DNA of 43,457 nucleotides from Rhodospirillales bacterium (lineage in GTDB: Bacteria; Pseudomonadota; Alphaproteobacteria; BOG-932; Roseiterribacteraceae): the NCBI GenBank assembly GCA_028291345.1, contig JAQGIF010000064.1, positions 1 to 43,457 on the forward strand, in the 5' to 3' direction. The translations under genes were made by a program, and so were the position numbers. The notes beneath the pieces were generated by a model. It was not told the origin of the DNA. It searched no databases and worked only from the letters and a program-made list of their open reading frames with translations. Below, one piece after another: positions 10,134 through 35,311 of the stretch (the stretch's first letter is position 1; each line of letters begins with the position of its first letter).

Positions 10134-10135
10134 CA

Positions 10136-10152
10136 AACGGTACGATACCGTT
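10136..10152. promoter_or_regulatory. TetR-type operator palindrome
   Basis: Perfect inverted repeat AACGGTA-CGA-TACCGTT, placed directly at the start codon of the double TetR gene and 55 bp before the divergent Coq4-like gene. Length, symmetry and position fit an autoregulatory TetR operator. Binding is inferred. Confidence 0.65.
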
Positions 10153-13845: not shown

Positions 13846-14451
13846 CTATTCCGCCGCTTTGAGCTTATGGAGCGGGATCGCGACAATCGCCTTGGCGTGG
13901 GGCCGGTCGGCCTCAATGGCGGTCAGTGGCTCGCAGGGCCGCAGCGTGTCCAGGCTGCGCCGCGCCAGGTCCTGATATTGCCGCGTGCCATTGGCCTTCC
14001 AGTCGATCTCCTTATCCTGCAATTCCCGCACGATCTTGGCGGGGACGCCGGCGACTAGGGTGCGCGGCGGCACTATCATGCCGGCGCGCACGAAGCTCAT
14101 CGCCCCGACGAAGCAGGCCTCGCCGATCTGCGCGCCGTCCATGATGACCGCATTCATGCCGATCAGCGCGTCGCGGCCGACGACGCAGCCGTGCAGGATC
14201 GCGCCGTGGCCGACATGGCCGTTCTCCTCGATAACCGCATCCTGACCGGGAAAGCTGTGCATGACACAATTATCCTGCAGGTTCGATCCGGGTTTCAGGA
14301 TAATCCGCCCGAAATCGCCGCGGAGCGACGCGCCTGGCCCGATATAGCAGCCTGCGCCGACGATCACGTCGCCGATCAGGACCGCCGTCGGGTGAACGAA
14401 CGCGGCCGGATCGACCACCGGGATCATGTCTTCGAAGCGATAAAACGGCAT
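13846..14451 (-). CDS. PaaY-like hexapeptide-repeat thioesterase / gamma-carbonic anhydrase family
   Basis: Left-handed beta-helix protein of 201 residues built of hexapeptide repeats ([20 protein letters not shown]). Metal-site histidines are at about His65 (MHSFPG), His82 and His87 (GHGAILHG). Overall text and length, including the tail [15 protein letters not shown], match PaaY, which hydrolyses dead-end CoA thioesters in phenylacetate breakdown. No other paa genes are visible, so here it probably rescues CoA from stalled intermediates of the pathway encoded around it. It is 9 bp upstream of the isomerase gene in the same operon. CaiE or a true gamma-carbonic anhydrase are alternatives. 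Confidence 0.82.
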
Positions 14452-16181: not shown

Positions 16182-17774
16182 CTAATTGACGCTTGTTCGC
16201 AGTATTCGCTTTAAAATCTTGCCGTTCGCGTTACGCGGCAGCGGTTGATCTACGAAAGTGACAAAGTCAGGCACCTTATAGTCCGAGAGACGCTCCCGAC
16301 AAAAGGCCTTGATTTCATCGACCGTGAGAGGCCCGTTTTTGGTCAGGACAAAAGCGTGGGTCTTTTCGCCCAGAACCGGGTCGGGCTCGGCCACCACGGC
16401 CGCTTCGCCAATATTCGGGTGATGGGCTAGCACATCCTCGACCTCGGCTGAATAGACCTTATATCCGGCGCGGTTGATCATGTCCTTCTTACGGTCGAGG
16501 ATCTTGAGATACCCGTCTTCGGTCATTGCGCCGATATCGCCGGAACGCCAATAGCCGGCGGTGAAGTTCGCTTGCGTCGCCACCGGGTTGTTCCAATAGC
16601 CGCAGCCGACATGGCCGCCGGCGATCCAGACCTCGCCGGTTTCGCCCCGCGGCACCTCGACGCCGTCATCATCGACGATCTTGATGTCGCAGCACGGGAC
16701 CGGCGTGCCGACCGTGTCGATCTTCGCCTCGACCTGACCCAGGGGAGTGATGGTCGAGGGTGATGTGGTCTCGGTCGAGCCATAGACATTGGACAGCTGC
16801 AGATTGGGCAGCTTCTCGGCCAGCTTTCTCAGCGTTGCGATCGGCATCGGCGAACCGCCGTAGGCGCCGATCCGCCAAGCCGACAGGTCGTAATCGTCGA
16901 ACGAGGCCTGCAGCATGCAGAGATTATACATCGCCGGGACCATCAGCGTGTAGGTCGCCTTTTCCTTCGCCGCAAGGGCCAGGAAATCCGCCGCCTTGAA
17001 CACGGTCTGAAAGATCGTCGCGCCGCCGACGCGCACCATCGAGAGCAGGATCGCCACCAGCCCGGTCACATGAGTGGATGGCACCGCCATCAAGGCGCGG
17101 TCGTCGCCTCGCAGCCCCAGGCAGAACTCATAATGCAGCGCCGACGTGACCATCGACATCTGGGTCAGCATCGCTCCTTTGGGCTTACCAGTGGTACCAG
17201 ATGTATAGAGGATGACCGCCGTCGCTTCCTGGTCGAACTCGGGCGTGGCGACCGGGGCGGCAGGCGCTGTCAACGCGTCGAACGGTTCCGCCCCCGCCAC
17301 TGCATCTCCCACCGCGAAACGGTGGGTTAAAGTCGGGACGGTCGCCGCATCGGGGATGCGCTCGGAGAGGTTGCCCTCGAAGAACAATATCTTCGCGCCG
17401 CTATCCTGAACGTTGAACACGATCTCGGGCTTCTGTTCGCGGGTATTGAGCGGCACGATCGCGGCACCCGCGCGCATCGCTCCGAACAGGGCAAAGGCGA
17501 ACTCAGCCCGGTTGCCGAGCAACAGCGCGATCCGGTCGCCCGGCACGACACCGCGCGCAACCAGCCCGGCCGCGACGGAATCGACGATCCGATCCATTTC
17601 CGCATAGGTGAAGCGCCGCCCGTTATCGACCAGCGCCTCGCCGTCGGGCTTTGCCGCCACGGCCTCACGCAAGATTTGATCGACACCCTTGGGGCGATCG
17701 CTGAAACACCGCACCACGCGGTCACCGTAATGCGCCTCGTAACGCATTGCCGGGCTATTCTGCCAGTTAGACAT
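16182..17774 (-). CDS. AMP-forming acyl-CoA synthetase
   Basis: Adenylate-forming ligase of 530 residues, full family length. The P-loop motif YTSGTTGKPKG lies at about 188-198, with YGSTETTSP (A5 region), GYWNN and YWRSGDIG (A7), DRKKDMINRAGYKVYSAEVE (A8 hinge) and the catalytic lysine near the end in NANGKILKR (A10). It activates a carboxylic acid to its CoA ester, the entry step for the downstream dehydrogenase, which is encoded immediately before it (5-bp gap). Cytoplasmic. The acid could be a fatty, aromatic or terpenoid/steroid side-chain acid. Confidence 0.88.
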   Translation of the reverse strand: MSNWQNSPAMRYEAHYGDRVVRCFSDRPKGVDQILREAVAAKPDGEALVDNGRRFTYAEMDRIVDSVAAGLVARGVVPGDRIALLLGNRAEFAFALFGAMRAGAAIVPLNTREQKPEIVFNVQDSGAKILFFEGNLSERIPDAATVPTLTHRFAVGDAVAGAEPFDALTAPAAPVATPEFDQEATAVILYTSGTTGKPKGAMLTQMSMVTSALHYEFCLGLRGDDRALMAVPSTHVTGLVAILLSMVRVGGATIFQTVFKAADFLALAAKEKATYTLMVPAMYNLCMLQASFDDYDLSAWRIGAYGGSPMPIATLRKLAEKLPNLQLSNVYGSTETTSPSTITPLGQVEAKIDTVGTPVPCCDIKIVDDDGVEVPRGETGEVWIAGGHVGCGYWNNPVATQANFTAGYWRSGDIGAMTEDGYLKILDRKKDMINRAGYKVYSAEVEDVLAHHPNIGEAAVVAEPDPVLGEKTHAFVLTKNGPLTVDEIKAFCRERLSDYKVPDFVTFVDQPLPRNANGKILKRILRTSVN

Positions 17775-17779: not shown

Positions 17780-19054
17780 TCAGCCCTCACGCGTCGGGTC
17801 GCCGTGAACGGCGTGATAGGGGGTGAGATAGCGGGCGGCCTGGCCGTTCATCGCCTTGATTCGGCCAAGCTCGGCCTTGCCCAGACCGCGCATATGCACC
17901 TCGTCCGGCCCGTCGCCCAGCTGCAGCGAACGGCCCCAGGTCCAGAAATTGGCCAACGGCGTATCAGGGCTCAAGCCCGCCGCGCCGAACACCTGGATGG
18001 CGCGGTTCATCACATTCACCTGCAGTTTGGGCACGACGATCTTGATCATCGAAACGTCGTTGCGGGCGGCCTTGTTGCCGTGCTGATCGATGATCCAGGC
18101 AGTGCGCAGCACAAGCAGGCGGGCCTGGTCGATCTCCATGCGGGTCAAAGCCAGCCAGTCGCGGATGGTTTCGCGCTCCGACAAGGGCTGGCCGAAGGCG
18201 ACGCGGCTTAAGGCGCGCTCGCCCATCAGTTCTAGCGCCAGTTCGCACTGGCCGATGAAGCGCATGCAGTGATGGATGCGGCCGGGGCCGAGGCGCGCCT
18301 GCGCGAGCCCGAAGCCGGCGCCTTCCTCCTTCAACAGGTTGGCGGCCGGGACCCGGACATCCTTGAACACCAGCTCGCAATGGCCCTCGATCTCGTTCAG
18401 ATTCATGAAGGGGATGTTGCGTACGATGGTGAGGCCCGGCGCATCCATCGGTACAAGGATCATCGACTGACGGGTATGGACAGGATTTTCCGGGTTGGTG
18501 ATGCCCATCACGATCGCGATCTTGCAGTTCGGATGGGTGGCGCCGGTAATGAACCATTTGCGGCCGTTGATCAAATATTCGTCGCCCTGGCGCTCGATCC
18601 GCGTCGCGATATTGGTCGCGTCGGACGACGCGACATCTGGCTCGGTCATCGCGAAGCAGGAGCGGATTTCGCCGCGCAGCAGCGGGTTAAGCCACTGCTC
18701 GCGCTGGGCCGGGGTGGCGGCGAGTTGGAGCAGCTCCATATTGCCGGTGTCGGGCGGCCCGCAATTGAAGACTTCCGGCGCCCAGAACAGCCGGCCCATG
18801 ATTTCGGCCAGTGGGGCATATTCCATATTGGTGAGACCGGTACCGGGAATCCCTATGGGCAGATGTGGCATGAACATGTTCCAAAGGCCGGCGGCCTTGG
18901 CCTTTTCCTTCAGCGGCTCAAGGATTTCCAGTGGATAGCTGCCACCCGAATATTGCCGGTGCCACGGGATGTTGGCCGGGACGACATGGTCGTCCATGAA
19001 GGCCTTCATCGTGTCGCGCAACGCCTCGACCTTAGGGGAATAACTGAAATCCAT
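17780..19054 (-). CDS. Acyl-CoA dehydrogenase, ACAD10/11-like
   Basis: Flavoprotein of 424 residues. The FAD-binding CFAMTEPDVASSD and WFITGATHP motifs are in the middle domain. The C-terminal text (GNKAARNDVSMIKIVVPKL, NRAIQVFGAAGLS, LGDGPDEVHM) is typical of the ACAD10/11 branch. At the position of the usual catalytic Glu (E-G-T in other ACADs) there is an Asp (DGPDEVH), as in that branch. Such enzymes, with a kinase of the APH family, remove hydroxyl groups from 4-hydroxyacyl-CoA (LvaC/ACAD11), and an APH-like kinase is encoded at 27567. First gene of the minus-strand operon; GGGAG ribosome binding site. Confidence 0.87.
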   Translation of the reverse strand: MDFSYSPKVEALRDTMKAFMDDHVVPANIPWHRQYSGGSYPLEILEPLKEKAKAAGLWNMFMPHLPIGIPGTGLTNMEYAPLAEIMGRLFWAPEVFNCGPPDTGNMELLQLAATPAQREQWLNPLLRGEIRSCFAMTEPDVASSDATNIATRIERQGDEYLINGRKWFITGATHPNCKIAIVMGITNPENPVHTRQSMILVPMDAPGLTIVRNIPFMNLNEIEGHCELVFKDVRVPAANLLKEEGAGFGLAQARLGPGRIHHCMRFIGQCELALELMGERALSRVAFGQPLSERETIRDWLALTRMEIDQARLLVLRTAWIIDQHGNKAARNDVSMIKIVVPKLQVNVMNRAIQVFGAAGLSPDTPLANFWTWGRSLQLGDGPDEVHMRGLGKAELGRIKAMNGQAARYLTPYHAVHGDPTREG

Positions 19055-19149
19055 CTATCTGCTCCCGAGCATTTCTTCGTACCTATTCAGATTTTCATCG
19101 CCCCGGATTTCCGCATCGCATCACCGATGTCTCACAATTTGGGTGATTC

Positions 19150-19175
19150 GCGAAATTCCGCTCTGTGAATTTCGC
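19150..19175. promoter_or_regulatory. Inverted repeat in divergent promoter region
   Basis: GCGAAATTC-(8 nt)-GAATTTCGC is a perfect 9-bp dyad with centre near 19162. It lies in the 181-bp region between the divergent ACAD operon (minus) and the SnoaL/SDR operon (plus). It is a good candidate operator for a dimeric regulator controlling both. No regulator gene lies next to it, and its sequence differs from the TetR palindrome at 10136. Confidence 0.55.
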
Positions 19176-19235
19176 TGCAAATACCTTACGGTCGGGCAAA
19201 GCGCGACGGCAAAGTAGCCACCAGGGAGACGAACA

Positions 19236-19763
19236 GTGACCGAGCCGGGGAATGACCTAGCAGCCTTGTACCAGCGTATTCAGCGACTGGAAGATATAGA
19301 AGCTATCCGACGCTTAAAAGCGCGCTATCTGAATGCCTGTGACCAGCAGGACCCGCCGGCCGTACGCGCCTGTTTCGCCGACGACGACAAGGTGTCGATC
19401 GAGGTCGCCCATCTGGGCACCTACGAGTCCGCCTCGGGGTTTTGCGCCATGTTCCAGCAGGCCGCCTGTCATCCTTTCGTGCTGGACAAGCATCAGGGCG
19501 GCAATGCCGAAATCGACATCATCGACGACACCCACGCCAAGGCGTTGTGGTGCCTGGATTACCGCTGCATCAACACGCGCGACGAAACGCTGACCATGCT
19601 ATCGCTGCTCTATCATGACGAATACGAGAAGATCGGCGGCGCCTGGAAAATCAGGCGCACGCGCAGCGAGTTCAAGGCGGCGTTCCACGGCACCTACGCC
19701 TCGGGCACGCTGAAGGCGCTGGTCGCCGGTCACTCGGTGGCAGACGCGCCGTTGAACAAATAA
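19236..19763 (+). CDS. SnoaL-like (NTF2-fold) protein
   Basis: Protein of 175 residues starting with GTG 19236 (AGGGAG about 10 bp upstream). The helix LYQRIQRLEDIEAIRRLKAR is followed by an NTF2-like barrel. Asp36 (NACDQQD) and His86 (LDKHQGG) match the positions of the LinA-type Asp/His dyad, as in the other two SnoaL_4 proteins of this window. It could be a dehydratase or isomerase. First gene of a SnoaL-SDR-SnoaL operon, divergent from the ACAD operon. The substrate is unknown. Confidence 0.75.
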   Translation: MTEPGNDLAALYQRIQRLEDIEAIRRLKARYLNACDQQDPPAVRACFADDDKVSIEVAHLGTYESASGFCAMFQQAACHPFVLDKHQGGNAEIDIIDDTHAKALWCLDYRCINTRDETLTMLSLLYHDEYEKIGGAWKIRRTRSEFKAAFHGTYASGTLKALVAGHSVADAPLNK

Positions 19764-19784
19764 TCTGATCTGGAGGATAATGTT

Positions 19785-20558
19785 ATGAGCGATAAACTTT
19801 TCCCTGAGGGCGCGGCCTTGATCGTCGGCGGATCCGGCGGCATCGGGCGCTATGTCTGCACCGAATTCGCCAATGCCGGCAGCGACGTGGCGATCACCTA
19901 TCACAACAACCAGGCCCCGGCCGAGGAAGCCGCCGAGAAGATCCGGGCGACCGGGCGCAAGGCAACGACCCATAAGCTCAGTACCAGCGACGCCGACCAG
20001 GTGGCGCAGGTTATGGCCGATGTGGCCAAAGAACATGGCCGCATCCACACCGTGGTCTACGGCGCCGCGCCGCTGACCGAACAGCTCTATATCTCGGAAT
20101 ACACGCTGGAGCGCTGGCAGAAATCGATCGACCAGGAGGTCAACGGCTTCTTCCGCGTCGTTCATGCCACCCTGCCTTTGATGAAGGCGGCGGGCGGTGG
20201 GTCCTATGTGCATCTGGGCTCGGCGGGCGACAGCTGGTGGCCGGAAAAGGACGGGTTGTCGGTCATTCCGAAGGCGGCGAACGAGGCGCTGATCCAGGGC
20301 CTCGCCAAGGAAGAGGGCAAGAACAATATCCGCGCCAACACGGTGCTCGTCGGCGTCATCAAGGCCGGCATGTTCCTGGAGCTGACCAAGCAGGGCGTGT
20401 TCGACCAGAAATGGATTGACGAGACTCACAAGCTGCTGGCGCTGAAGCGCTGGGGTGAGCCGGAGGAGATCGGTTATGCTGCAGTATTCCTCGCCTCCAA
20501 TAAGGCGCTGTATGTCACCGGCCAGAAGATCTCGGTCTCCGGCGGGTTCGGCGTTTAA
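19785..20558 (+). CDS. SDR-fold protein lacking the catalytic tyrosine
   Basis: Protein of 257 residues with an intact cofactor loop (GGSGGIG, 15-21), Ser146 (HLGSAG) and the C-terminal VTGQKISVSGGFGV of SDRs. In the active-site motif Y-x-x-x-K the tyrosine is replaced: Ser159-V-I-P-Lys163, 13 residues after Ser146. N-N-A-G is also changed (YGAAP). The protein may therefore bind NAD(P)H without normal SDR chemistry, or use another acid. GGAGG ribosome binding site. It lies between two NTF2-fold genes (21-bp and 2-bp gaps), suggesting a functional unit with them. Confidence 0.8.
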   Translation: MSDKLFPEGAALIVGGSGGIGRYVCTEFANAGSDVAITYHNNQAPAEEAAEKIRATGRKATTHKLSTSDADQVAQVMADVAKEHGRIHTVVYGAAPLTEQLYISEYTLERWQKSIDQEVNGFFRVVHATLPLMKAAGGGSYVHLGSAGDSWWPEKDGLSVIPKAANEALIQGLAKEEGKNNIRANTVLVGVIKAGMFLELTKQGVFDQKWIDETHKLLALKRWGEPEEIGYAAVFLASNKALYVTGQKISVSGGFGV

Positions 20559-20560
20559 CT

Positions 20561-21106
20561 GTGACGTCCAGCAGCGATGTTGGTGACCGTACGCAGCTCA
20601 TGCTCGACAAGCATGAGCTGCGGGAGCTGGGACTGACCTATTGCCGGGGCATCGACCGGCAGGATTTCCCGCTGGTCCGCAGCCTCTATCACGACGACGC
20701 GATCGACGATCACGGCGACATGTTCAAAGGCGGACCGGACGATTATGTCGCCTGGCTGCCCTCGATCATGGCAATGTGGGACGCGACGGTGCACAGCATT
20801 TCCAACGCGCTGTATGAGGTCGACGGCGACAAGGCGGAGGGCGAACTCTATGTCGTCGCCTATCACCGCACCCACGGACCGGACGCCAAGGAAGTCATCG
20901 TCGGGGGCCGCTATCTCGACAAGTACGAGAAGCGCGACGGCGCGTGGAAATTCAGCCACCGCTCGCTCGCGATGGATTGGTGCAACGTCCAGGACGTGCG
21001 GCCCGAGGATTACGACACCTTCGCCGCCGGCGCGGTGCGCGGCCGACACGACGCGGGGGATGCGTCCTATGCGGAACTGACGCTGTTCGGGCGGATGGGG
21101 AAGTAA
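20561..21106 (+). CDS. SnoaL-like (NTF2-fold) protein, LinA-type dyad
   Basis: Protein of 181 residues; the GTG start lies 2 bp after the SDR stop, so translation is probably coupled. After a helix (HELRELGLTYCRGID) the barrel carries Asp32 and His78 (TVHSISN), aligned with Asp25/His73 of LinA (VDK, TIHYGTN), and the strand YLDKYEKRDGAWKFSHRS is typical of SnoaL_4. A dehydratase, dehydrohalogenase or isomerase function is possible; no real LinA identity is claimed. The gene is followed by 214 bp without genes before the flavin oxidoreductase. Confidence 0.75.
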   Translation: MTSSSDVGDRTQLMLDKHELRELGLTYCRGIDRQDFPLVRSLYHDDAIDDHGDMFKGGPDDYVAWLPSIMAMWDATVHSISNALYEVDGDKAEGELYVVAYHRTHGPDAKEVIVGGRYLDKYEKRDGAWKFSHRSLAMDWCNVQDVRPEDYDTFAAGAVRGRHDAGDASYAELTLFGRMGK

Positions 21107-21320
21107 AGGCGGTACCACCATTCATATTGCGCGAATGGCGGATTTCCATATACAAACGCCGACAACCACGTCGATCCAAGGCATGTGGACTACGAAAATC
21201 AACATGGGCAACGCTCGTCCGCTTAGACGATGTGTTGGGCGCGGTTCCCTGGCAAGATGTGCCACCGGTCACGCCGGACTTTGAAATTTGGGGCTCGTCG
21301 ATCGGGCGAAGGGGAAGCAG

Positions 21321-22463
21321 ATGAAATTTTCGATCATTTACGAAGCGCAGATGGTGGACACCTCGCGCGCCAACGAGGCCCAGGTCTTCCAAGATATGGT
21401 CGAGCAGTCGGTGCTCGCCGAGGAGATGGGATTCGATTGCATTTGGTCCGTCGAGCATCACTGCCTGACCCAGTATGCGCACCTGTCGGCGCCGGAGAGC
21501 TTCCTCGCCTTCATCGCCGGACGCACGACCCGCATCCATGTCGGCCACGGCGTGGTCTGCCTGCCCTTCAAGATGAACCATCCGATCAAAGTCGCCGAGC
21601 GCGTCGCGACATTGGATCTGCTGTCGCGCGGCCGTCTGCACTTCGGCGTCGGCAAGGGTGGCACGGTCCAGGAGACCGGGGCGTTCGACACAAAACTTGA
21701 GGACGTCACGCCCCAGGTCGACGAGTCGATGTATATGATCCCCAAGATGTGGATGCAGGAGGTGTTCGAGCATCACAGCGACATCATCAACATCCCGCCG
21801 CGCCCGATCCATCCCAAGCCGTTCCAGGACCCGCATCCGCTGATGTATATGGCCTGCACGCGTGAGGAAGCCCTGGAGATCGCCGGCTCGCGTGGGCTCG
21901 GCGCCCTGGTGCTGGGCTTCAGCGGCCCGGATGAAATCGCCAAGAAGAACGGTATCTACCGCAAGGCTTATGCCGCGCGTAAAGCCGAAGATCAGGTGGG
22001 GTACCGCCCGCATTCGCATCTGGCGGCGCTGTGCCCCGCGGTCATCCTCGGGGACAAGGAAAAGGCCAAGCGCATCGGCGTGCGTGGCCAGCGCTTCTTC
22101 GCGGAATCGATCCGCTACTGGTATGCCGGCGGCGACAAGCCGAGTGTCGAAGACCTAGATGCTGATGTTCAGATAGCCAAGCTTGAGCAATCGAAGGAGC
22201 AGATCGTCGCCTATCTCGGCCAGGAGAAGATCCCGGTCACCGACGCGTCGACCAGCAACTATCATGTCGAGGAAGACGCCTATGGTTCGGTCGATCAGGC
22301 AATCCGCTATGTCGAGCGGCTGATTGCATCGGGCGCCGACGAAATCCTGTTCCTGGTGCAGATGGGAACCATCCCGCACGAGGTTACGATGGAAACCATC
22401 CGCAATATCGGCGAACATCTGATACCGCATTTCAAGGCGAAGCTCGCCGCCGCCGCGGAATAA
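21321..22463 (+). CDS. LLM class flavin-dependent oxidoreductase (luciferase-like)
   Basis: Protein of 380 residues with the bacterial-luciferase TIM-barrel pattern: N-terminal MKFSIIYEAQM, FDCIWSVEHHC, HVGHGVVCLPF, and LSRGRLHFGVGKGG near residue 110. Enzymes of this family are FMN- or F420-dependent monooxygenases or reductases. I chose ATG 21321 because AGGGGAAG lies just upstream and the family N-terminus starts here; the frame is open to a TTG at 21288. Separated from the SnoaL operon by 214 bp and closed by a strong terminator, so it may be a single unit. It may carry out an oxygen-insertion (Baeyer-Villiger-like or hydroxylating) step. Confidence 0.85.
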   Translation: MKFSIIYEAQMVDTSRANEAQVFQDMVEQSVLAEEMGFDCIWSVEHHCLTQYAHLSAPESFLAFIAGRTTRIHVGHGVVCLPFKMNHPIKVAERVATLDLLSRGRLHFGVGKGGTVQETGAFDTKLEDVTPQVDESMYMIPKMWMQEVFEHHSDIINIPPRPIHPKPFQDPHPLMYMACTREEALEIAGSRGLGALVLGFSGPDEIAKKNGIYRKAYAARKAEDQVGYRPHSHLAALCPAVILGDKEKAKRIGVRGQRFFAESIRYWYAGGDKPSVEDLDADVQIAKLEQSKEQIVAYLGQEKIPVTDASTSNYHVEEDAYGSVDQAIRYVERLIASGADEILFLVQMGTIPHEVTMETIRNIGEHLIPHFKAKLAAAAE

Positions 22464-22480
22464 AAGACACGATCGCATGA

Positions 22481-22511
22481 ACGGCGCCGACCACAAATCG
22501 GCGCCGTTTCT
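22481..22511 (+). terminator. Intrinsic terminator after the LLM gene
   Basis: ACGGCGCCGA-CCACAAA-TCGGCGCCGT (22481-22507) is a perfect 10-bp stem followed by TTCTTT. Confidence 0.8.
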
Positions 22512-22563
22512 TTGACTGAGGCCAACGGGTAGACTGAGGCCCGAGAGCCATTTGGGGGAAGTT

Positions 22564-23346
22564 ATGAAGAGAGAGTTCGAAGGCAAATCGGTCATCATCA
22601 CCGGCGCCGCATCGGGCATCGGCAAGGCCGCTGCCCACCGTTTCTCCAATGAGGGTGCGAAGGTCTGCATCGCAGACATGGATATCGAACGTGCCGAAAA
22701 GGTCTCCCAGGAGATCAACGCCAATGGCGGCACGACATTCGCCACAAAAGTTGATGTCGCTGCCCAAGCCGACAATGACCGGATGGTCGCCGAGACAGTC
22801 AAGAAATTCGGTAAGCTGGACATCGCCTATCTGAATGCCGGCTATTACGGGCCGGGCACGGATATTTTCAGTGACGACATCACGGCCTTTGACCGGATCA
22901 TCGCGATCAACCTGCGCGGCGTGTTCCTAGGCATCCACAGCGTTGCCAAGGCAATCACCGAGGGCGGCGCGATCGTCGTTACCGGTTCCACGGGCGGTAT
23001 ATTAGGGCTGGCGAACAACCCGGCCTATAGCGCGTCCAAGCACGGGCTGATCGGACTGATCCGCTCCTCGGTCGAGCCGCTGTCGACGAAGCGCGTTCGC
23101 ATCAATGCGATCCTACCGGGTGGCGTGAACACGCCGCTGAATTTCGGCGAAATGGTCGACACCTATTACCCGCCGGACGAACTTAAGCCGGTGCCGTTCC
23201 GCGGATACGGCGAGTCGCAGCATATCGCCGAATTTGCCTTGTTTCTCGCAAGTCCTCGCGCTGCTTTCATCAATGGCGGCGCGCATGTCATCGATGGCGG
23301 TCTGACCTCCAGCTTCGCCGCCGTCCGCTACGAGAAGGCGGACTGA
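22564..23346 (+). CDS. SDR family oxidoreductase
   Basis: Classical SDR of 260 residues: TGAASGIG cofactor loop, Asp in VDVAAQ, NAGYYG, Ser in TGSTGG and catalytic YSASK; the end is VIDGGLTSS. ATG 22564 is preferred over the upstream TTG 22552 because GGGGGAAG lies directly before it. It probably oxidises a secondary alcohol of a pathway intermediate. The stop overlaps the apparent start of the ApbE gene, so the two are coupled, an unusual partner for an SDR. Confidence 0.85.
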   Translation: MKREFEGKSVIITGAASGIGKAAAHRFSNEGAKVCIADMDIERAEKVSQEINANGGTTFATKVDVAAQADNDRMVAETVKKFGKLDIAYLNAGYYGPGTDIFSDDITAFDRIIAINLRGVFLGIHSVAKAITEGGAIVVTGSTGGILGLANNPAYSASKHGLIGLIRSSVEPLSTKRVRINAILPGGVNTPLNFGEMVDTYYPPDELKPVPFRGYGESQHIAEFALFLASPRAAFINGGAHVIDGGLTSSFAAVRYEKAD

Positions 23347-24218
23347 CCGAGCCTGCAAAGACCATCAAGCGGCCCGTCATCAAGAGATCCCGGCCGCTTC
23401 TTGGAACCTATGTCGCGATCGGCATTGGCGGCCTCGCCGATGCCGAGGCGATTGGGGCCATCGAAAGCGGCTTCGCGACGATCGCAGACATCCACCGGCT
23501 GATGAGCTTTCACGAACCGGACAGCGATATTGGCCGTGTGAACCGCGCCGGCGTTGGCGAAGACATCGTGGTCGATCCGCGGACATTCGCCGTGCTGGAG
23601 CAAGCGGGCCGCCTGGCCGCCGAGAGCGACGGGATATTCGATATTACCGTCGCCGCCGAGCTGGTGGCGCTGGACCTGCTGCCAAGGCCGACCTGCCCCC
23701 ATGAGCCCGATCCGGGTGCATCATGGCGCGATATCGAATTGATCGCACCGCATGCAGTGCGTTTAAACCGCCCGCTCTGGATCGATCTTGGCGGTATCGC
23801 CAAAGGCTACGCCGTCGATCGAGCGATGCGCGCTATGAAGCTGCCGTCCGACATCCAATGCTTGGTGAGTGCCGGCGGCGACCTGCGCGTATCCGGCCCG
23901 GCGGCCGAGCGCGTCCTGCTGCGTGTATCCTCGACGGACAAGGCGGTGCCGGTTCTGGAAATCGAGAATGCCAGTCTCGCCAGCAGCGAAGCCATGGGTG
24001 GTCCGGTCGGTCCGCATCTCGACGGCGTCAGCCGGCGCGGTATCGGCACCCGAAGATTCGTGTCGGTGGTGGCGCGGGATTGTATAATCGCAGATGCGCT
24101 GACCAAGATCGTGATAGCCCGGGGCAAAGACGCGGGCGAGATATTGAAACGCCACGGCGCAACCGCCTACCTCAACGAAGGCAACGCGGGTTGGGAAACG
24201 ATCGGAGCCGTGAATTGA
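23343..24218 (+). CDS. FAD:protein FMN transferase (ApbE-like)
   Basis: ApbE transfers FMN from FAD to a Ser/Thr of a target flavoprotein. The frame contains family blocks RPLLGTYVAI, IHRLMSFHEPDSDI, WIDLGGIAKGYAVDRA (about 140-155), SAGGDLRVSG and the metal-site Asp in IADALTKIV. The conserved N-terminus lies before the first ATG (23502), and no ATG, GTG or TTG occurs in frame between the SDR end and that block. I therefore place the start at CTG 23343, overlapping the SDR stop, after GAGAAGGCGGA. This gives 291 residues, normal for the family. ATG 23502 would remove about 53 residues. No signal peptide. The cytochrome b-like gene overlaps its end. Confidence 0.75.
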   Translation: MTEPAKTIKRPVIKRSRPLLGTYVAIGIGGLADAEAIGAIESGFATIADIHRLMSFHEPDSDIGRVNRAGVGEDIVVDPRTFAVLEQAGRLAAESDGIFDITVAAELVALDLLPRPTCPHEPDPGASWRDIELIAPHAVRLNRPLWIDLGGIAKGYAVDRAMRAMKLPSDIQCLVSAGGDLRVSGPAAERVLLRVSSTDKAVPVLEIENASLASSEAMGGPVGPHLDGVSRRGIGTRRFVSVVARDCIIADALTKIVIARGKDAGEILKRHGATAYLNEGNAGWETIGAVN

Positions 24219-24691
24219 CCGCTACGCGCGCCACAGGGACAAGAACCGTGTTGAAGCCGCCGATGAGGATCGCCCGGCAATATCGCATTCTGCTCTACGT
24301 CACCGGCTGGGGAGTGTGGCTGACCGGCGTGCTCTGGGTGCTGTTCCATTATTTCATGCGAGTGAAGGGCCCGTTCGGCTTCAAGACCAACCCGCTGGAG
24401 GAATGGTGGCTGATCACCCATGGCGGCTTCGCAGTTCTGAGCACGTTCCTGTTTGGCTGGATGTGGAGCCAGCATATTGTCATCGGCTGGGATATGCGCT
24501 GGCGGCGCCGATCCGGCGGCACGATGGCCGGCGTGACGATCTTTCTGATCCTCAGCGGCTACGCGATCTATTATATCGGCGATCCGGACTGGCTGAACTG
24601 GACAGCGATCGCCCATTGGGGGATCGGCGTTGCCGCGCTCGCGATCTTCTTCATCCATTGGCTGTCGAAATCCCGGCCGCGCAGGGCGTAA
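24215..24691 (+). CDS. Small four-helix membrane protein, cytochrome b-like
   Basis: About 158 residues with four hydrophobic helices: LLYVTGWGVWLTGVLWVLF, GGFAVLSTFLFGWMWSQHI, GVTIFLILSGYAIYYIG and GIGVAALAIFFIHWL. Histidines in or near helices 1, 2 and 4 (FHYF, THGG, SQHI, AHWG, IHWL) could ligate heme b, as in DUF4405/cytochrome b561-like proteins. It overlaps ApbE by 4 bp with TTG 24215 (GGAG upstream); GTG 24248 with AGGGA upstream is an alternative start. Next to an ApbE gene it suggests a membrane redox unit that carries electrons to or from a flavinylated partner, but no FMN-binding domain gene is seen in the window. Confidence 0.65.
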   Translation: MTATRATGTRTVLKPPMRIARQYRILLYVTGWGVWLTGVLWVLFHYFMRVKGPFGFKTNPLEEWWLITHGGFAVLSTFLFGWMWSQHIVIGWDMRWRRRSGGTMAGVTIFLILSGYAIYYIGDPDWLNWTAIAHWGIGVAALAIFFIHWLSKSRPRRA

Positions 24692-24695
24692 CCCG

Positions 24696-25370
24696 CTACC
24701 AGATCGATTGGATCAGACGGTAGAGGACGCGCCGCGTGTAGTCTTCATAGCCGGCAGATGGGCGCGCAGCAGGCGTTCCTCAGCGACGATCCTATAGGCG
24801 ATGATCAATTCCAGCAGCATGCCGGCCGCCAACCCCCACCAGGAGCCCAGCGTCAGGACTGTGCCGGCGAATATGAAGATTGCCCCGGCATACATCGGAT
24901 GGCGCACGACCGCATAAGGGCCGGTTGAAATCACCCGGTGGCCGCGGTCGGATTGAATGCGCACGACGGGCGCCAGGAAGGTGTTTTCGCGAAAGGTCAG
25001 GCGCACGATCCAGAAGCCGGCGATCAGGCTGGCAACCCCAAGCCATTTCAGCCAACCCGGCATCGTCGACCAACCGAAGCGTGCGTCCAGCCCCATCATC
25101 AGCAGCCAGCCGAACCAGACGACCTGCAGCATGCCGGTGAGAAATCTTATCCCACAGCGGCTGTCCGGCTTGGTCCAAGCCCTTCATGCGCTCGGCCAGC
25201 AGGGCAGGGTCTTTCCTGGCGACGGCCCAGGTCACCGCGACAACGCAGATGAAGAAGGTGACGAGAAAAATCAAGCCTGCCGGCCAGCGCATGGTTCCCG
25301 TGCCGCCGAACAGGCAAATGGCCTGGAGCGCGAACATCCCGCCCAGCATGAGCCATAGGCTCGCGGTCAT
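24696..25370 (-). pseudogene. Frameshifted isoprenylcysteine/phospholipid methyltransferase-like membrane protein
   Basis: From ATG 25370 the frame gives MTASLWLMLGGMFALQ, then LLAERMKGLDQAGQPLWDKI and loses the family text at about 25140. A second frame continues MLQVVWFGWLLMMGLDARFG, FRENTFLAPVVRIQSDRGH and STGPYAVVRHPMYAGAIFIF, the hallmark of ICMT/PEMT-type methyltransferases. At about 24760 a third change gives YEDYTRRVLYRLIQSIW and stop at 24696-24698, the normal family end. Two single-base frameshifts interrupt an otherwise complete gene of about 224 codons. The neighbouring genes are intact, so a sequencing error or recent mutation is possible. Four base pairs separate it from the upstream gene of the same strand. 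Confidence 0.78.
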
Positions 25371-25374
25371 GCTG

Positions 25375-26154
25375 TCAGCCGGCTTGGTCTTCCGCGCGCT
25401 TCAACTCGTCGATCAGCGCCGGCATGCCGAAGGTCACGGTATGGATGCCGAGCACGGAGGTCAACTGATAGACCTCCATGATCTCCTGCATCGTTGCGCC
25501 ATAGCGTAGCGCATTCTGGATATGGACGCGCAGGCCCGGTTCATAGAGATGGGTCGTGGCGGAATCGATCGCGATATAGATCAGTTCGCGGACCTTGGGT
25601 TCCAGCGTCCCGGTCGTCCACGGGATCGACGAGAAATTCATGTAGGCTTCGAAAAATTCCGGCGACAGGCGGATCAGCCCGTCCCATAGCGGGCTCCAAT
25701 AGCCGCGATTTTCGGTGAAGGTTTTCTTCAACTGCTCTTGATGCGGTGTCAGCGGATTTTGCTCGATCTCCGCGCCGCGTCCGGCCTTCGCCATTTCGTC
25801 GAACAGGATCGGCAGGCCGGTGGTCACGGTGTGGATGCCCAGCACGGAGGTCAGCTGATAGACCTCCATGATCTCAGCCTTGGTCGCGCCATAGCGCAGC
25901 GCATTGCGGATATGGACCTTGAGGCCCGGCTCATACATATGGGTCGTCGAGGAATCGATCGCGATATAGATCAGTTCGCGAACTTTCGGCTCCAGCGTTC
26001 CAGTCTTCCACGGGACCGACGAGAAATTCATATAGGCTTCGAAGAATTCGGGCGTCAGATCGAGGATGTCGTCCCAGATCGGGCTCCAGTAACCGCGAGC
26101 AGCGGTGAATTCTTCCCTAAGCCTCTGCTTTTTTTCGTCCAATTTATCGGTCAT
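25375..26154 (-). CDS. Duplicated carboxymuconolactone decarboxylase-like protein
   Basis: Protein of 259 residues made of two copies of one CMD/AhpD-like domain (about residues 8-126 and 138-256), period 130 residues. Both copies have YWSPxWD, FFEAYMNFSS, TGTLEPKVRELIYIAID, ALRYGAT and EIMEVYQLTSVLGIHTVT. The CxxC of AhpD-like enzymes is absent: the region reads SSTTHMYEPG and SATTHLYEPG, and no cysteine exists in the protein. Activity is therefore unlike alkylhydroperoxidase; a decarboxylase or lyase role using the His is possible. In an operon with the ferredoxin reductase (7-bp gap) and the methyltransferase-like pseudogene. Confidence 0.82.
   Translation of the reverse strand: MTDKLDEKKQRLREEFTAARGYWSPIWDDILDLTPEFFEAYMNFSSVPWKTGTLEPKVRELIYIAIDSSTTHMYEPGLKVHIRNALRYGATKAEIMEVYQLTSVLGIHTVTTGLPILFDEMAKAGRGAEIEQNPLTPHQEQLKKTFTENRGYWSPLWDGLIRLSPEFFEAYMNFSSIPWTTGTLEPKVRELIYIAIDSATTHLYEPGLRVHIQNALRYGATMQEIMEVYQLTSVLGIHTVTFGMPALIDELKRAEDQAG
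25432..26097 (-). repeat. 390-bp tandem duplication inside the CMD-like gene
   Basis: Blocks 25432-25707 and 25822-26097 match closely at DNA level with an exact 390-bp offset; for example GGTCACGGT recurs at 25432 and 25822, and GACCTCCATGATCTC occurs in both. It reflects an in-frame duplication of one domain. Confidence 0.8.
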
Positions 26155-26161
26155 GATTTTC

Positions 26162-27385
26162 TCAGACCTCAGCCAGCGGCACGTCCAAATTCACTAACCG
26201 CATCAAATCCGGCTTGCGGCCTTCTGTGATCAGTTTCTTGCCGCTCATGAAATCCTTCGCGGAGTTGACCGCGTTCACCGCCACGATTGCGCCATTGCGC
26301 AGATAATACGCGGCGAAGCGGCGGGTGGAGGGGTCGCCGCGGAGGACAACGCGGTCGCCGATTTCCGACATGCCGGCGATCTGCAGCTTCAGGTCATACT
26401 GGTCAGACCAGAACCAGGGCAATTCATGGAACGGTTTGGGGTTGCCGGTGATGGCGCTGGCAGCTGCCCGGGCTTGACCCATCGCGGCGGGCACGGATTC
26501 CAGGCGCAGGCGCTTGCCGAGTATGTCGTTCGGATGGTTGGTGGCGTCCCCGATGGCGAAGATTGCCGGGTCGGCGGTGCGGCCGCATTCGTCGACGACG
26601 ATGCCGTTTTCGACCGCGAGGCCCGCCGCTGCCGCCAGTTCGGTGTTGGGGATCGCACCGACACCGACAACGACTACATCCGCCGCGACCTCGGTGCCGT
26701 CCGTGAGCCGCACGGACCTGACCGCGCCATCGCCGGTGAAGGCTTCGATGACCACGCCAAAATGAAGATCGACCCCGGCTTCGCGGTGCGCGCTCTCATA
26801 GAACTGGGCGATCTCGGTTCCCGCTACCCGCGCCAGCAGACGCTCCAGCATTTCGATCACTGTGACCTTGCAGCCGAGTTTCGTAGCGCTGGCCGCGACC
26901 TCCAGCCCGACATAGCCGCCGCCGACGATCGCCAGCCGCTTGCCGGGTCCCAGCCGCGCGCCGATCGCACGGGAATCGGCGAGGGTGCGCAGGTAGAAGA
27001 CTCCATCGAGATCGGCACCGGGAACCTGCAGCTTGCGCGCCCGCGCGCCGGTCGCGATCACCAGTTTGTTGTAGGCGAGCGTCTCGCCGGTCGAAAGCGT
27101 GATCCGGTGCGCCGTCCTGTCGATGGCAGTGACAGTCAGCCCCAGCCGTACATCAATGTTCTTATCGGTGTAGAACTGGTCGCGTTTCAGGAACACGCGC
27201 TCGAGTTCCATTGCGCCGCTGAGCAATTCCTTCGAGGTCGCGGGCCGGTCATAGGGCCGATACGCCTCGTCCCCGATCAGGATCAGTTTGCCATCGAACC
27301 CGCCGGACCGTAGCGATTCGACGATTTGCGCGCCGCCATGTCCGGCGCCGATGATAATAATCGTTTCGGGGTTTGTTTCAGCCAT
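26162..27385 (-). CDS. FAD-dependent ferredoxin/rubredoxin reductase
   Basis: Protein of 407 residues of the putidaredoxin reductase type (class I oxygenase reductases). FAD motif GAGHGG (13-18), YRPYDRPATSKELL (typical R-P-x-L-S-K region), ATGARARK, NAD motif GGGYVG (about residue 155), second FAD part IFAIGDAT, and a C-terminal domain with LPWFWSDQYDLKLQI. It passes electrons from NAD(P)H to a ferredoxin feeding a P450 or Rieske oxygenase; none of these is present in the window. No strong ribosome binding site is seen. First gene of the minus-strand operon with the CMD-like gene. Confidence 0.87.
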   Translation of the reverse strand: MAETNPETIIIIGAGHGGAQIVESLRSGGFDGKLILIGDEAYRPYDRPATSKELLSGAMELERVFLKRDQFYTDKNIDVRLGLTVTAIDRTAHRITLSTGETLAYNKLVIATGARARKLQVPGADLDGVFYLRTLADSRAIGARLGPGKRLAIVGGGYVGLEVAASATKLGCKVTVIEMLERLLARVAGTEIAQFYESAHREAGVDLHFGVVIEAFTGDGAVRSVRLTDGTEVAADVVVVGVGAIPNTELAAAAGLAVENGIVVDECGRTADPAIFAIGDATNHPNDILGKRLRLESVPAAMGQARAAASAITGNPKPFHELPWFWSDQYDLKLQIAGMSEIGDRVVLRGDPSTRRFAAYYLRNGAIVAVNAVNSAKDFMSGKKLITEGRKPDLMRLVNLDVPLAEV

Positions 27386-27427
27386 TTACGATTTCGGTCC
27401 AAAAATTCAGGCGGGCGGAAATTTATG

Positions 27428-27444
27428 GCGGTATCATACACCGC
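27428..27444. promoter_or_regulatory. Imperfect dyad in divergent promoter
   Basis: GCGGTATCATACACCGC has 5-bp arms (GCGGT/ACCGC) plus two inner symmetric positions. It lies between the ferredoxin reductase and the APH-kinase gene. The core CGGTA...TAC..CCG resembles the palindrome at 10136-10152, so the same TetR-type protein might bind, but the match is weak. Confidence 0.3.
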
Positions 27445-27566
27445 GCGTCCTCCCACATGCGCGATTGCAACACATCAGATGCCGTACACCGATGCAACCC
27501 TGAAGACTGAACGGCGTTTCTCTCCGGCTTGCTGGAGGGCGCGGCTGGGTTATAAGTTCGGCCGCC

Positions 27567-28589
27567 ATGACAACGCATCAGAAAAATTCCCAAACCACCG
27601 CACCTGACCCGTACGACGATGTCCGCAAGGCAGTCCGCCGCAGATTCGGCACGGCGGCCAGCATCGGCAATATCGTGCAGCCGACTCTGGGCGGGTCGAA
27701 CCGCACGGTGGTCTTCGACCTGGTCGAGGGCAACGCCAGGCGGAGGCTGGTGTCGCGGCAGGAAACATACAGCGCGGAAGACAGCCCGTTCCTGTCGCCG
27801 TCGGACCAGTTCAAGGTGATGGGCGCCGCCTATCGCCACGGCTTGCCGGTGCCGGAGCCGGTGTTCGAATATGATGCTGACGACGTGATGGGGCACGGTT
27901 TCGTCACCGGTTTCGTCGGAGGCGAGACGATGCCCAAGCGAATCATTTCCGATCCAGCCTTCGCCGGCGCGCGCGGACGGTTGCCGGGGCAGCTTGCGGA
28001 ATTCGAGGCGCGGCTGAATGCGATCCCGCTGGAGGAGATCGCGTTCCTGGAGCAGATCGCGGACAGCACCGACCCGATCCAGGCCCAGCGGGCGCGATAC
28101 GATTTCTATGACGAGCCGCACCCGGGCATCGAGCTCGGCCTGCGCTGGCTGGAAACCCACCGGCCCCCGCCGCAAAAGCGGGTTCTGGTGCATGGCGATT
28201 TCCGCAACGGCAATTTCATGGTGGGTCCGAATGGGCTAAGCGCCGTTCTGGATTGGGAATGCAGCCATATCGGTAGCGGGCTTGAGGATTTCGGCTGGCT
28301 CTGCACCCGGTCCTGGCGGTTCGGGCGCAATGATCTGCCGGTCGGCGGTTTTGCCCAGCGCCAGGCGCTTTTCGAAGGCTTCGTGGCGGCGGGCGGTACG
28401 CAGGTCGATCCCGAGGCGGTGCGCTATTGGGAGATATTCGGGCTGGTCCGCTGGGGGATCATCAATATCATGCAGGCACATGGCCATGTGTTCGGCGGCC
28501 GGCGTAGCGTCGTGTTCGCGGCATGCGGGCGCAATACCAGTCAGATCGAATATGATCTACTGATGACCGTCGCGGGGCATTATCAATAA
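27567..28589 (+). CDS. APH-family phosphotransferase, LvaA/ACAD10-type kinase-like
   Basis: Protein of 340 residues of the aminoglycoside phosphotransferase fold. N-lobe with TLGGSNRTVVFDLV (nucleotide loop), catalytic loop HGDFRNGNFM (His209, Asp211, Asn216) and metal-binding DWE (Asp229). In CoA catabolism such proteins phosphorylate hydroxyacyl-CoAs (LvaA, the APH domain of ACAD10/11) ahead of elimination by an ACAD11-like dehydrogenase, which is present at 17780. The next gene is an acyl-CoA ligase (8-20 bp away), supporting a role in CoA-ester metabolism and not in antibiotic resistance. Divergent from the ferredoxin reductase operon. Confidence 0.82.
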   Translation: MTTHQKNSQTTAPDPYDDVRKAVRRRFGTAASIGNIVQPTLGGSNRTVVFDLVEGNARRRLVSRQETYSAEDSPFLSPSDQFKVMGAAYRHGLPVPEPVFEYDADDVMGHGFVTGFVGGETMPKRIISDPAFAGARGRLPGQLAEFEARLNAIPLEEIAFLEQIADSTDPIQAQRARYDFYDEPHPGIELGLRWLETHRPPPQKRVLVHGDFRNGNFMVGPNGLSAVLDWECSHIGSGLEDFGWLCTRSWRFGRNDLPVGGFAQRQALFEGFVAAGGTQVDPEAVRYWEIFGLVRWGIINIMQAHGHVFGGRRSVVFAACGRNTSQIEYDLLMTVAGHYQ

Positions 28590-28609
28590 ATAGAGACATG
28601 GGAACGATT

Positions 28610-30250
28610 ATGACAGGGACCGATCACCCATTCACGAGCGCCTTTGCGGCGTTCGAGGCCACCGCGAAGGCCCATCCCGACAATGCCTTCCTGGCGGTGC
28701 CGGCGCGCGCTGATCGCGACTATTATCCGGCCGGCGTCGAGTTCACCTATCGCGCCGCGCTCGATCATATTCTGGAGCTGCGCAGCCTGTATGAACGCTC
28801 CGGCATCGGGCATGGCCACCGCGTCGCGCTGCTGCTGGGTAATCAGCCGGAGCATTTCTTCCATCTGTTCGCGCTGAACGCGCTGGGTGCCAGCGTCGTG
28901 CCGCTGAACCCGGACAACCGGCCGGAGGAGATGCTGTATGCGATCACCCATTCCGAGTCCGATCTGGCATTCGCCGCGAATGCGCGCCTGGCCGAACTGA
29001 CCGGCATCGCGGCGCGGCGCGAAACCCCGTTGCCGGTCTATTCCGTCCAGAATTTGCCGGATCGTCTGGCGACGCCGGTTAAGCCAATGCGGACCGACGC
29101 GCCCGGCCTCTCCGCCGAGGCGGCGCTGCTCTACACGTCGGGCACAACTGGCAGCCCCAAGGGTTGCATGATTTCGAACGATTATTTCCTGACCTCCGGC
29201 AGCTGGTACGTGACGCGGGGCGGGCGACTGTCCTTCACCTTCGGGCAGGAGCGGCTGTTCAACCCGTTCCCTGTCTTCCACATGAACGCCGGTGTCATGA
29301 GCCTGATGGCCGTGACCTTGACGGCGAGCTGCCTGATCTCCGCAGACCGATTCCATCCAAAAAGCTGGTGGCGCGACCTGGTCGATACCGGCGCGACCGC
29401 GGTCCATTACATGGGCGTCATCCCGCCGATCCTGTTCAAGCAGGAGGCGATGCCGGAAGAAAGATTGCATAAGGTTAAGTTCGGGCTGGGCGCCTCGGTC
29501 GATCCGACCTTGCATACGGCGTTCGAGGAGCGGTTCGGCTTCGCCATGGTCGAGGTCTGGGGCATGACGGAGACCGGGCGCGTGTTCTGCGACAACATCG
29601 AGCCGCGCCAAGTGACCACCCGCGCCATCGGCGCGCCGCGCGACGGGCTTGAAGTCAAGATTGCCGATGATAATGATAACGCCGTGCCACAGGGCCGGGA
29701 CGGGCAATTGCTGGTGCGCTTCGCCGGGCCAGACCCGCGCAAGGGATTCTTTTCCGGCTATCTCAAGGAAACGGAAGCGACCGAGGAAGCCTGGCGCGGC
29801 GGCTGGTTCCATACCGGAGATGTCGTTCGGCAGGGGACGGACGGCATGCTCTATTTCGTCGATCGCCGGAAGAATATCGTTCGGCGCAGCGGGGAGAATA
29901 TCTCAGCCGCTGAGGTCGAAGAGTCGATCATCACCCATCCGAGCGTCAATACCTGCGCGGTCCTGCCGATCGAGGACGAGCTGCGCGAGGAGGAGGTGAT
30001 GGCCTGCGTCGTGCTGAGCGAGGGCGTTACCCCAGACCGTGAAACCGCTACTGCGATCTTCAGCCATTGCCGGGACCAGCTCGCCTATTACAAGACGCCC
30101 GGCTGGATCGTCTTTCGCGACAAGCTGCCCACGACTACGACTACCAAGATCCAGAAGGGGCTGATTTTCGCCGCGCATGAGGACCCTAGGACCATCCCCG
30201 GATCGCATGATTTCCGGGGCGAGAAGCGCCGCCACCCGGCTGCGGCCTGA
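28610..30250 (+). CDS. AMP-forming acyl-CoA ligase (second copy)
   Basis: Adenylate-forming enzyme of 546 residues. P-loop YTSGTTGSPKGCM near residue 174, VWGMTETGRV (A5), GWFHTGDVV (A7), DRRKNIVRRSGENISAAEVE (A8) and a C-terminal lysine in TTTTKIQKG (A10). It activates an acid to its CoA ester. It differs clearly from the ligase at 16182, so the two probably serve different steps. ATG 28610 is preceded by GGGAA at good distance; ATG 28598 is an alternative. In an operon with the APH kinase and the LpxD-like gene (3-bp gap). Confidence 0.87.
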   Translation: MTGTDHPFTSAFAAFEATAKAHPDNAFLAVPARADRDYYPAGVEFTYRAALDHILELRSLYERSGIGHGHRVALLLGNQPEHFFHLFALNALGASVVPLNPDNRPEEMLYAITHSESDLAFAANARLAELTGIAARRETPLPVYSVQNLPDRLATPVKPMRTDAPGLSAEAALLYTSGTTGSPKGCMISNDYFLTSGSWYVTRGGRLSFTFGQERLFNPFPVFHMNAGVMSLMAVTLTASCLISADRFHPKSWWRDLVDTGATAVHYMGVIPPILFKQEAMPEERLHKVKFGLGASVDPTLHTAFEERFGFAMVEVWGMTETGRVFCDNIEPRQVTTRAIGAPRDGLEVKIADDNDNAVPQGRDGQLLVRFAGPDPRKGFFSGYLKETEATEEAWRGGWFHTGDVVRQGTDGMLYFVDRRKNIVRRSGENISAAEVEESIITHPSVNTCAVLPIEDELREEEVMACVVLSEGVTPDRETATAIFSHCRDQLAYYKTPGWIVFRDKLPTTTTTKIQKGLIFAAHEDPRTIPGSHDFRGEKRRHPAAA

Positions 30251-35262: not shown

Positions 35263-35311
35263 TGCCGATGCCATCGGCCGCGTGTGACGCCATGCCAGGG
35301 CACGGCTTCGT

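Follow-up and report, generated by a model that had tools for sequence, protein, structure and literature searches.

A DUF6285-marked kinase clade linked to phosphate-signature acyl-CoA dehydrogenases, and a possible dehydroxylation pair in an alphaproteobacterial catabolic cluster

The window studied here is a whole contig of 43,457 nucleotides (nt) (JAQGIF010000064.1, C213), part of the 5.63-Mb genome, in 401 contigs, of a Rhodospirillales bacterium (GCA_028291345.1, family Roseiterribacteraceae), and it carries in one catabolic cluster an acyl-CoA dehydrogenase (ACAD) gene and an APH-type kinase gene. The partial 16S sequence of the genome shares 79.6% identity with that of Escherichia coli over 637 of 801 bases. 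The kinase belongs to a clade marked by an adjoining DUF6285 protein, and we found that kinases of this clade are recurrently linked, above chance, to ACADs bearing the phosphate-handling residues of ACAD10 and ACAD11 (here, phosphate-signature ACADs). This linkage is a more interesting result than the window pair itself. Judging by its residues and its place in the tree, the window ACAD is a true ACAD10/11/LvaC-type enzyme, with good support for phosphorylation-dependent dehydroxylation as its chemistry; that the ACAD and the kinase carry it out as a pair is plausible but unproven.

ATP-driven removal of hydroxyl groups through a phosphate ester has reportedly been assigned to genes recently, with the Pseudomonas putida lva operon in 2017 and mammalian ACAD10 and ACAD11 in 2024-2025. 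Were a second lineage of kinases indeed tied to these lyases, the known range of this chemistry would widen, DUF6285 would gain a role, and candidate kinase-lyase pairs would come into view for pathways that lack a lyase, for example, oxygen-independent sterol side-chain degradation.

The ACAD is of the ACAD10/11 type

The two genes are as follows.

17780..19054, minus strand: putative acyl-CoA dehydrogenase-like phosphate lyase of the ACAD10/11/LvaC type, 424 amino acids (aa) (PDB matches, RLGPGRIHHCMR plus DGPDEV, tree)
27567..28589, plus strand: APH-fold kinase of the DUF6285-associated clade, here without DUF6285, 340 aa (PF01636, 92.2 bits; kinase trees)

The first-pass annotation of the window had described an ACAD10/11-type dehydrogenase and an APH-type kinase in the same cluster but in separate gene runs, and the coordinates, strands, Pfam matches and motifs agree with that description. 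The ACAD type was likewise borne out. Against solved structures, the top match was mouse ACAD11 (8v3u, 381.9 bits), with 4hr3 and human ACAD11 (2wbi) also at the top, while the best ordinary ACAD reached 122.9 bits. As described in passages of two reports, ACAD10/11 and LvaC are distinguished by R626, H634 and R637, which bind phosphate (HCMR motif), and by Asp753, the base (PMC12440821, PMC11342911); a passage of the second adds that human ACAD11 has a helix-breaking proline, Pro463 (PMC11342911). In our alignment, the window ACAD carries the equivalents of R626, H634 and R637 (RLGPGRIHHCMR), and the DGPDEV of its C-terminal part (within LGDGPDEVHM) aligns with mouse D753, that is, a catalytic Asp instead of Glu (numbering in the PDB rows differs by one from that of PMC12440821). 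All five tested positions (R626, R631, H634, R637 and D753) were held by 54 of the 58 alignment rows, this ACAD included; the remaining four rows represent three distinct ordinary ACADs, two of them from the same genome, in which only the general R631 was retained.

Phylogeny, proposed in the first-pass annotation as a check, placed the protein with ACAD10/11 and not with ordinary ACADs. With high support, it is nested among the ACAD10/11 proteins; its sub-branch of ten rows (100/98) also holds proteins of Rhodobacteraceae and other alphaproteobacteria, and the mouse ACAD11 rows and most kinase-paired bacterial enzymes stand apart from this sub-branch. A later quick tree added 19 more relatives on the side of the window ACAD (SH-aLRT 86), including proteins of Burkholderia, Caballeronia, Azoarcus, Ruegeria and an Alteromonas plasmid. 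It could still be argued that the protein is an ordinary ETF-linked acyl-CoA dehydrogenase in which the motif has no functional meaning, since Pfam yields only general ACAD domains (Acyl-CoA_dh_N, _M and _1, all above cut-off) and a scan against NCBIfam gave no family at its cut-off. The residues and the tree led us to reject this idea, which we consider very improbable.

The kinase belongs to a clade apart from the ACAD11 kinases

The kinase matches PF01636 well above its cut-off of 23.2 bits and has the catalytic motifs HGDFRNGN and LDWE (within VLDWEC), corresponding to the kinase catalytic Asp/Asn and the metal-binding Asp. The earlier description of an APH-type kinase with HGDFRNGN and DWE stood, but its likening to the kinase of ACAD10/11 did not. 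Identity to the ACAD11 kinase domain was 19% (25 bits), compared with 42% (267 bits) for the kinase on contig C189, which lies beside the second ACAD10/11-type gene of the genome. In a 45-row kinase tree, built without P. putida LvaA, the ACAD11-kinase clade comprised 20 rows (100/100), including 3dxp, 9o56 and the own-genome kinases of contigs C189 and C274, while the window APH fell in another clade of 23 rows (100/98), the DUF6285-associated clade. Two more kinases of the same genome lie outside both clades. A profile search of the kinase alignment (A1) against PDB sequences gave 3dxp, 9o56, 3ats and ACAD11 as the nearest structures.

The two clades also differ in residues. A passage of PMC12440821 describes R86 and R176 as contacting CoA in the ACAD11 model. 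The aligned equivalents, namely, the Arg preceding the alpha-C Glu and an RQ motif, were present in 20/20 rows of the ACAD11 clade, while in the DUF6285 clade RQ was found in 0/23 rows and the first Arg in one (G042). The alpha-C Glu itself is a Gln in 7/23 rows of the latter clade, namely, the kinases of the genus and that of genome G191. In the window APH, SDQ stands where DRE is expected and the R176 position is deleted, although at ca. 20% identity the loss of these arginines is read from sequence alignments and not from a structure. On the grounds of clade and missing arginines, the idea that the window APH is itself an ACAD10/11-type kinase was discarded.

Two APHs of this subfamily are encoded in the genome. 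The second locus (L149, C316:46501-66500) holds a paralogue 60% identical to the window APH together with DUF6285, DUF7064/DUF7065 and biotin-dependent carboxylase genes. As comparison genomes, we used two of the same genus (G001, near complete, and G002, 65% complete) and two of the same family (G003 and G004); a kinase plus DUF6285 of the C316 type was also found in G001 and G002. Outside the genus, the kinase found to be closest to the window APH was that of G191 (51% identity), which is sister to the genus kinases at 100/100.

DUF6285-clade kinases are recurrently linked to phosphate-signature ACADs

We searched a class sample of 289 genomes, in which relatives of the window APH at an E value of ≤1e-45 occurred in 56 genomes, at 64 places. 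The surroundings of 60 out-of-genus places (57 loci) were read up to ca. 9 kb on each side; some contigs were just 3 to 5 kb long, so the neighbor counts are lower bounds. DUF6285 was located with a profile built in this analysis, and PF19802 was confirmed on four of the proteins. Of the 60 kinase relatives, 58 (L152, L176 and L186 to L240) are either fused to a DUF6285 protein or have its gene no more than 200 bp away, the two exceptions being first copies of tandem kinases. These proteins are small (116 to 132 aa in five examples), and DUF6285 is possibly a partner protein of this kinase clade. One search for DUF6285 in the open-access literature gave no paper, and none of the papers listed by a broader search (20 of 26), the two ACAD10/11 papers among them, mentioned it.

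A phosphate-signature ACAD was present beside 15 of the 60 kinase relatives. Seven of these ACADs are of the ACAD10/11 type, all within 0.9 kb of the kinase, including the gene 368 bp from the G191 kinase. The other eight (L213, L225, L228, L233 and L236 to L239) overlap or abut the kinase frame and belong to a second ACAD subfamily, 34 to 39% identical to the window ACAD (36 to 39% for these eight), with RLGxARLTHCMR or similar (R....R..HCMR) and the catalytic Asp. The genome under study has its own copy of this second subfamily (C16:16442-17572). By chance, and assuming genomes of 4.3 Mb, ca. 0.45 listed ACAD10/11-type genes would be expected within 10 kb of the 60 kinases, against the seven observed. 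The canonical side-by-side kinase-ACAD pair of this genome is the one on contig C189 (C189:23110-25402).

The kinases linked to ACAD10/11-type genes form four separate groups in the kinase tree, mixed with kinases that have no such neighbor. Their partner ACADs form three groups within an unresolved fork of the ACAD tree, where a single origin is possible. Four loci (L199, L201, L202 and L204) have the order ACAD-SDR-APH, with DUF6285 adjoining the APH. The cassette ACADs had first seemed to group with the window ACAD because of a shared Gly before the catalytic Asp (present in the window ACAD, in that of G001 and in six of seven cassette ACADs), a grouping dropped when the tree put them on different branches. 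Compared with the window, these cassettes, and a similar one on the Azoarcus sp. KH32C plasmid pAZKH, have the same kinase clade, a phosphate-signature ACAD and an SDR gene, but the window has no DUF6285 and its ACAD sits on another branch of the ACAD10/11 clade.

The make-up of these loci and of the pAZKH cassettes recalls two described gene sets. A passage of PMC6692424 gives for the P. putida lva operon the kinase LvaA, its 12-kDa partner LvaB, the ACAD LvaC, the SDR LvaD and the ligase LvaE, and for a Pseudomonas citronellolis cluster a histidine phosphatase and no lvaB (PMC6692424). The lva operon was not found in the genome samples searched. Set beside it by description, the window resembles it in encoding kinase and ACAD as separate proteins, near SDR and CoA ligase genes; unlike it, the window has no gene for a small partner, and its kinase and ACAD are 8.5 kb apart. 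DUF6285 may play an LvaB-like role as small partner for this kinase clade.

We tentatively propose, as an idea in some doubt, that the DUF6285-associated APH kinases are a second, unrecognized kinase family for phosphorylation-dependent hydroxyl removal, which would work with two phosphate-signature ACAD subfamilies in place of the ACAD10/11-type kinase; alternatively, these kinases could be the genuine relatives of P. putida LvaA, in which case DUF6285 would correspond to LvaB. Within the window, such a system would act on a steroid-like acid, and the idea may extend to hydroxysteroid kinases without a known lyase. One such enzyme is the 25-hydroxysteroid kinase (25-HSK, accession A0A7Z7HU23) of Sterolibacterium denitrificans, described in a passage of PMC8449060 as a phosphotransferase with little similarity to known ones and with a 25-phosphosteroid lyase whose gene is unknown. 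Compared by description, 25-HSK and the window APH as proposed here are both phosphotransferase-type kinases that make a hydroxyl a leaving group, but 25-HSK acts on a tertiary alcohol and not on a CoA ester. We found no paper in the open-access literature on a phosphotransferase family protein in a steroid-degradation gene cluster.

Two kinds of kinase accompany one kind of ACAD

In the class sample, ACAD10/11-type genes had matches in 103 of the 289 genomes, with 150 genes listed (at least 150 in the sample) and 150 kinase matches likewise listed. Among these matches, an ACAD11-type kinase lay within 10 kb of 47/150 ACAD10/11-type genes and a DUF6285-type kinase within 10 kb of 9/150, the window and G001 included, while none of the 150 listed genes had both kinase types at that distance. 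Plasmid pAZKH holds both arrangements, each with an SDR, an ACAD and a histidine phosphatase. One consists of the phosphatase, an ACAD11-type kinase, the SDR and an ACAD 61% identical to that of the window; the other has an ACAD of the THCMR type (38%), the SDR, a DUF6285-clade kinase, DUF6285 and the phosphatase.

With 9o56 as query, 30 loci were retrieved from 299 genomes sampled across the phylum. In many of them an SDR or a histidine phosphatase gene adjoined the kinase; an ACAD10/11-type ACAD was in the flank of six and DUF6285 in none. In 14 ACAD10/11-type loci from 12 genomes of one family in that sample, a kinase was present in the flanks read of one.

The window pair in its cluster

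The genes around the pair fall into distinct runs.

12799..13347, minus strand: BaiE-like (bile acid 7-alpha-dehydratase family) SnoaL_4 protein, end of the ACAD gene run (PF13577; PDB 4l8p)
13384..13836, minus strand: SnoaL-like protein, ACAD gene run (PF12680)
13846..14451, minus strand: PaaY/CaiE-like hexapeptide protein, ACAD gene run (TIGR02287, 305.5 bits, slightly below the cut-off of 319.6)
14478..15257, minus strand: SDR oxidoreductase, ACAD gene run (PF13561)
15288..16148, minus strand: SDR oxidoreductase, ACAD gene run (PF00106)
16182..17774, minus strand: AMP-forming acyl-CoA ligase ligA, 5 bp after the ACAD (PF00501)
19236..19763, plus strand: SnoaL_4 protein, weakly BaiE-like, first gene of the divergent run (PF13577; 4l8p, E = 7.8e-9)
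19785..20558, plus strand: SDR oxidoreductase (PF13561)
20561..21106, plus strand: SnoaL_4 protein (PF13577)
21321..22463, plus strand: luciferase-like monooxygenase, start codon chosen by us (PF00296; no NCBIfam family above cut-off among the matches listed)
22564..23346, plus strand: SDR oxidoreductase, start codon chosen by us (PF13561)
25375..26154, minus strand: carboxymuconolactone-decarboxylase-like protein with two domains (PF02627, two stretches)
26162..27385, minus strand: dioxygenase-type ferredoxin reductase, divergent from the APH (PF07992, PF14759)
28598..30250, plus strand: AMP-forming acyl-CoA ligase ligB, 8 bp after the APH (PF00501; best NCBIfam PRK06155, below its cut-off)
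30254..31282, plus strand: LpxD-like acyltransferase after ligB (TIGR01853, 308 bits, above the cut-off of 242.5)
31290..32069, minus strand: PhyH-family dioxygenase (PF05721)

Our preferred reading, to which we give a little less than an even chance, is that the window APH and ACAD are a two-enzyme system for phosphorylate-then-eliminate dehydroxylation of an acyl-CoA, with the APH as partner kinase. An acyl-CoA ligase gene directly follows each of the two, and ligA, ligB or both would form the CoA thioester. The kinase would then phosphorylate a hydroxyl, for which the gamma carbon is the likeliest position; the Arg/His/Arg cluster of the ACAD would hold this phosphate while the Asp abstracts the alpha proton beside FAD, and expulsion of phosphate would, without net redox change, yield a 2-enoyl-CoA that beta-oxidation could take up. 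The APH, from the separate DUF6285-associated clade, would occupy the slot otherwise taken by an ACAD11-type kinase. In mammalian ACAD10/ACAD11, the ACAD is of the same family, with R626/R631/H634/R637 and D753, but their kinase is fused; that of the window is separate, of the other clade and without R86/R176 equivalents.

The arrangement is repeated in the near-complete congener G001 (ACAD 90% and APH 80% identical, 9.5 kb apart, with the intervening genes retained), and we estimate a ca. 1% chance of one such pair within ca. 9.5 kb (two ACADs and two APHs in 5.63 Mb). Joint action of the pair stays plausible because the APH clade is repeatedly linked to such ACADs. Several observations weigh against it. 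The genes are separated by 8.5 kb, on opposite strands and in distinct runs. Their synteny was seen in just two genomes of one genus, and in G002 the APH (71%) is on a 4-kb contig and no ACAD was matched at the threshold used; neither gene was found in G003 or G004 at the thresholds used. The kinase lacks the CoA-contact arginines, no DUF6285 was found in the window, and the only DUF6285 of the genome (C316:55802-56071) is beside the paralogue. Within the clade at large, no ACAD was present in the stretch read for 35/60 kinase relatives and only ordinary ACADs for 10/60, and an AMP ligase was found in only 8 of the 57 loci.

Proteins closely related to the window ACAD add a further difficulty, as several of them are encoded near the other kind of kinase. 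An ACAD11-type kinase lies directly beside the relatives in G015, G068, G178, G266, Ruegeria and Alteromonas, with SDR genes in between in Caballeronia, Azoarcus and Burkholderia, and ca. 4 kb away in Lutimaribacter; 16 other related ACAD loci, some on short contigs, had none in the stretch read. In G068 (56%) and Thalassovita (47%), a ligA homologue directly follows the related ACAD, and in Lutimaribacter (51%) one lies ca. 2 kb after it; homologues of the PhyH dioxygenase are found ca. 1 kb (G015, 40%) and ca. 6 kb (G182, 39%) from such ACADs. With the order kinase-ACAD-ligA in G068, the ACAD-ligA of the window resembles that unit minus its kinase. No ACAD11-type kinase was found within 10 kb of the window ACAD among the matches listed, but the genome encodes two elsewhere, one on C189 with its own ACAD and one on C274 with no ACAD match in the 19 kb read around it. 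The ACAD might then be a lyase fed in trans by one of these kinases, while the window APH, devoid of CoA-contact arginines, would have another job, such as transferring phosphate to a hydroxyl of some compound other than a CoA ester. We regard this as a real but rather doubtful possibility. G001 keeps the ACAD, yet among the matches listed at E ≤ 1e-55 it shows a single ACAD11-type kinase, already beside its own ACAD; the C274 kinase did not group clearly with the kinases that accompany relatives of the window ACAD; and such ACADs neighbor DUF6285-clade kinases more often than chance would predict. Due to this polytomy in the kinase tree, we dropped the specific idea of the C274 kinase as a lost co-orthologous partner and kept it only as one of the two kinases that might act in trans.

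It would also fit the distance and the separate gene runs if the two genes belonged to unrelated pathways and were chance neighbors in a large catabolic island. Along similar lines, the stretches read around the APH paralogues of the genus (C316, and those on G001 C47 and G002 C219) hold no ACAD10/11-type gene, and those around 45/60 of the relatives elsewhere hold no phosphate-signature ACAD. Set against this are the low estimated probability of such nearness, the retention of the pair with its intervening genes in G001 and the ACAD10/11-type gene adjoining the nearest out-of-genus APH, so that we deem mere neighborhood unlikely.

Substrate and other genes of the cluster

As to the substrate of the proposed ACAD-APH pair, the protein that ends the ACAD gene run matches the BaiE-related structure 4l8p over 144 aligned residues (E = 3.2e-29). 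Together with the SDRs, the luciferase-like monooxygenase, the PhyH dioxygenase and the ferredoxin reductase, the BaiE-like proteins suggest a hydroxylated polycyclic acid, perhaps a steroid, and the presence of a BaiE homologue within the ACAD run mildly supports a bulky acyl-CoA as the substrate. According to a passage of PMC13101464, SteC, of the same family as the BaiE-like protein, dehydrates a ring hydroxyl in steroid degradation. With such proteins present, the cluster may also own ATP-free dehydratases for other hydroxyls. The third SnoaL_4 protein shows only weak similarity to Rv3472, to LinA and to a putative scytalone dehydratase.

Other features of the window deserve a brief mention. 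An LpxD-family acyltransferase above its curated cut-off stands within a catabolic cluster, after a kinase and a ligase. A PEMT/ICMT-type methyltransferase is seemingly split over two frames (24713-25370, minus strand), by either a frameshift or an assembly error. At 23502-24723 (plus strand), an ApbE-family flavin transferase gene precedes a frame that looks like a membrane protein and has no Pfam match; the two are perhaps a flavinylated membrane electron-transfer unit. Two TetR_N domains occur in one frame at 8724-10136 (minus strand), as tandem or fused repressors, and beside the cluster (33898-43313, plus strand), one HlyD, two AcrB-type and one OEP gene make up an RND efflux system with two pump subunits.

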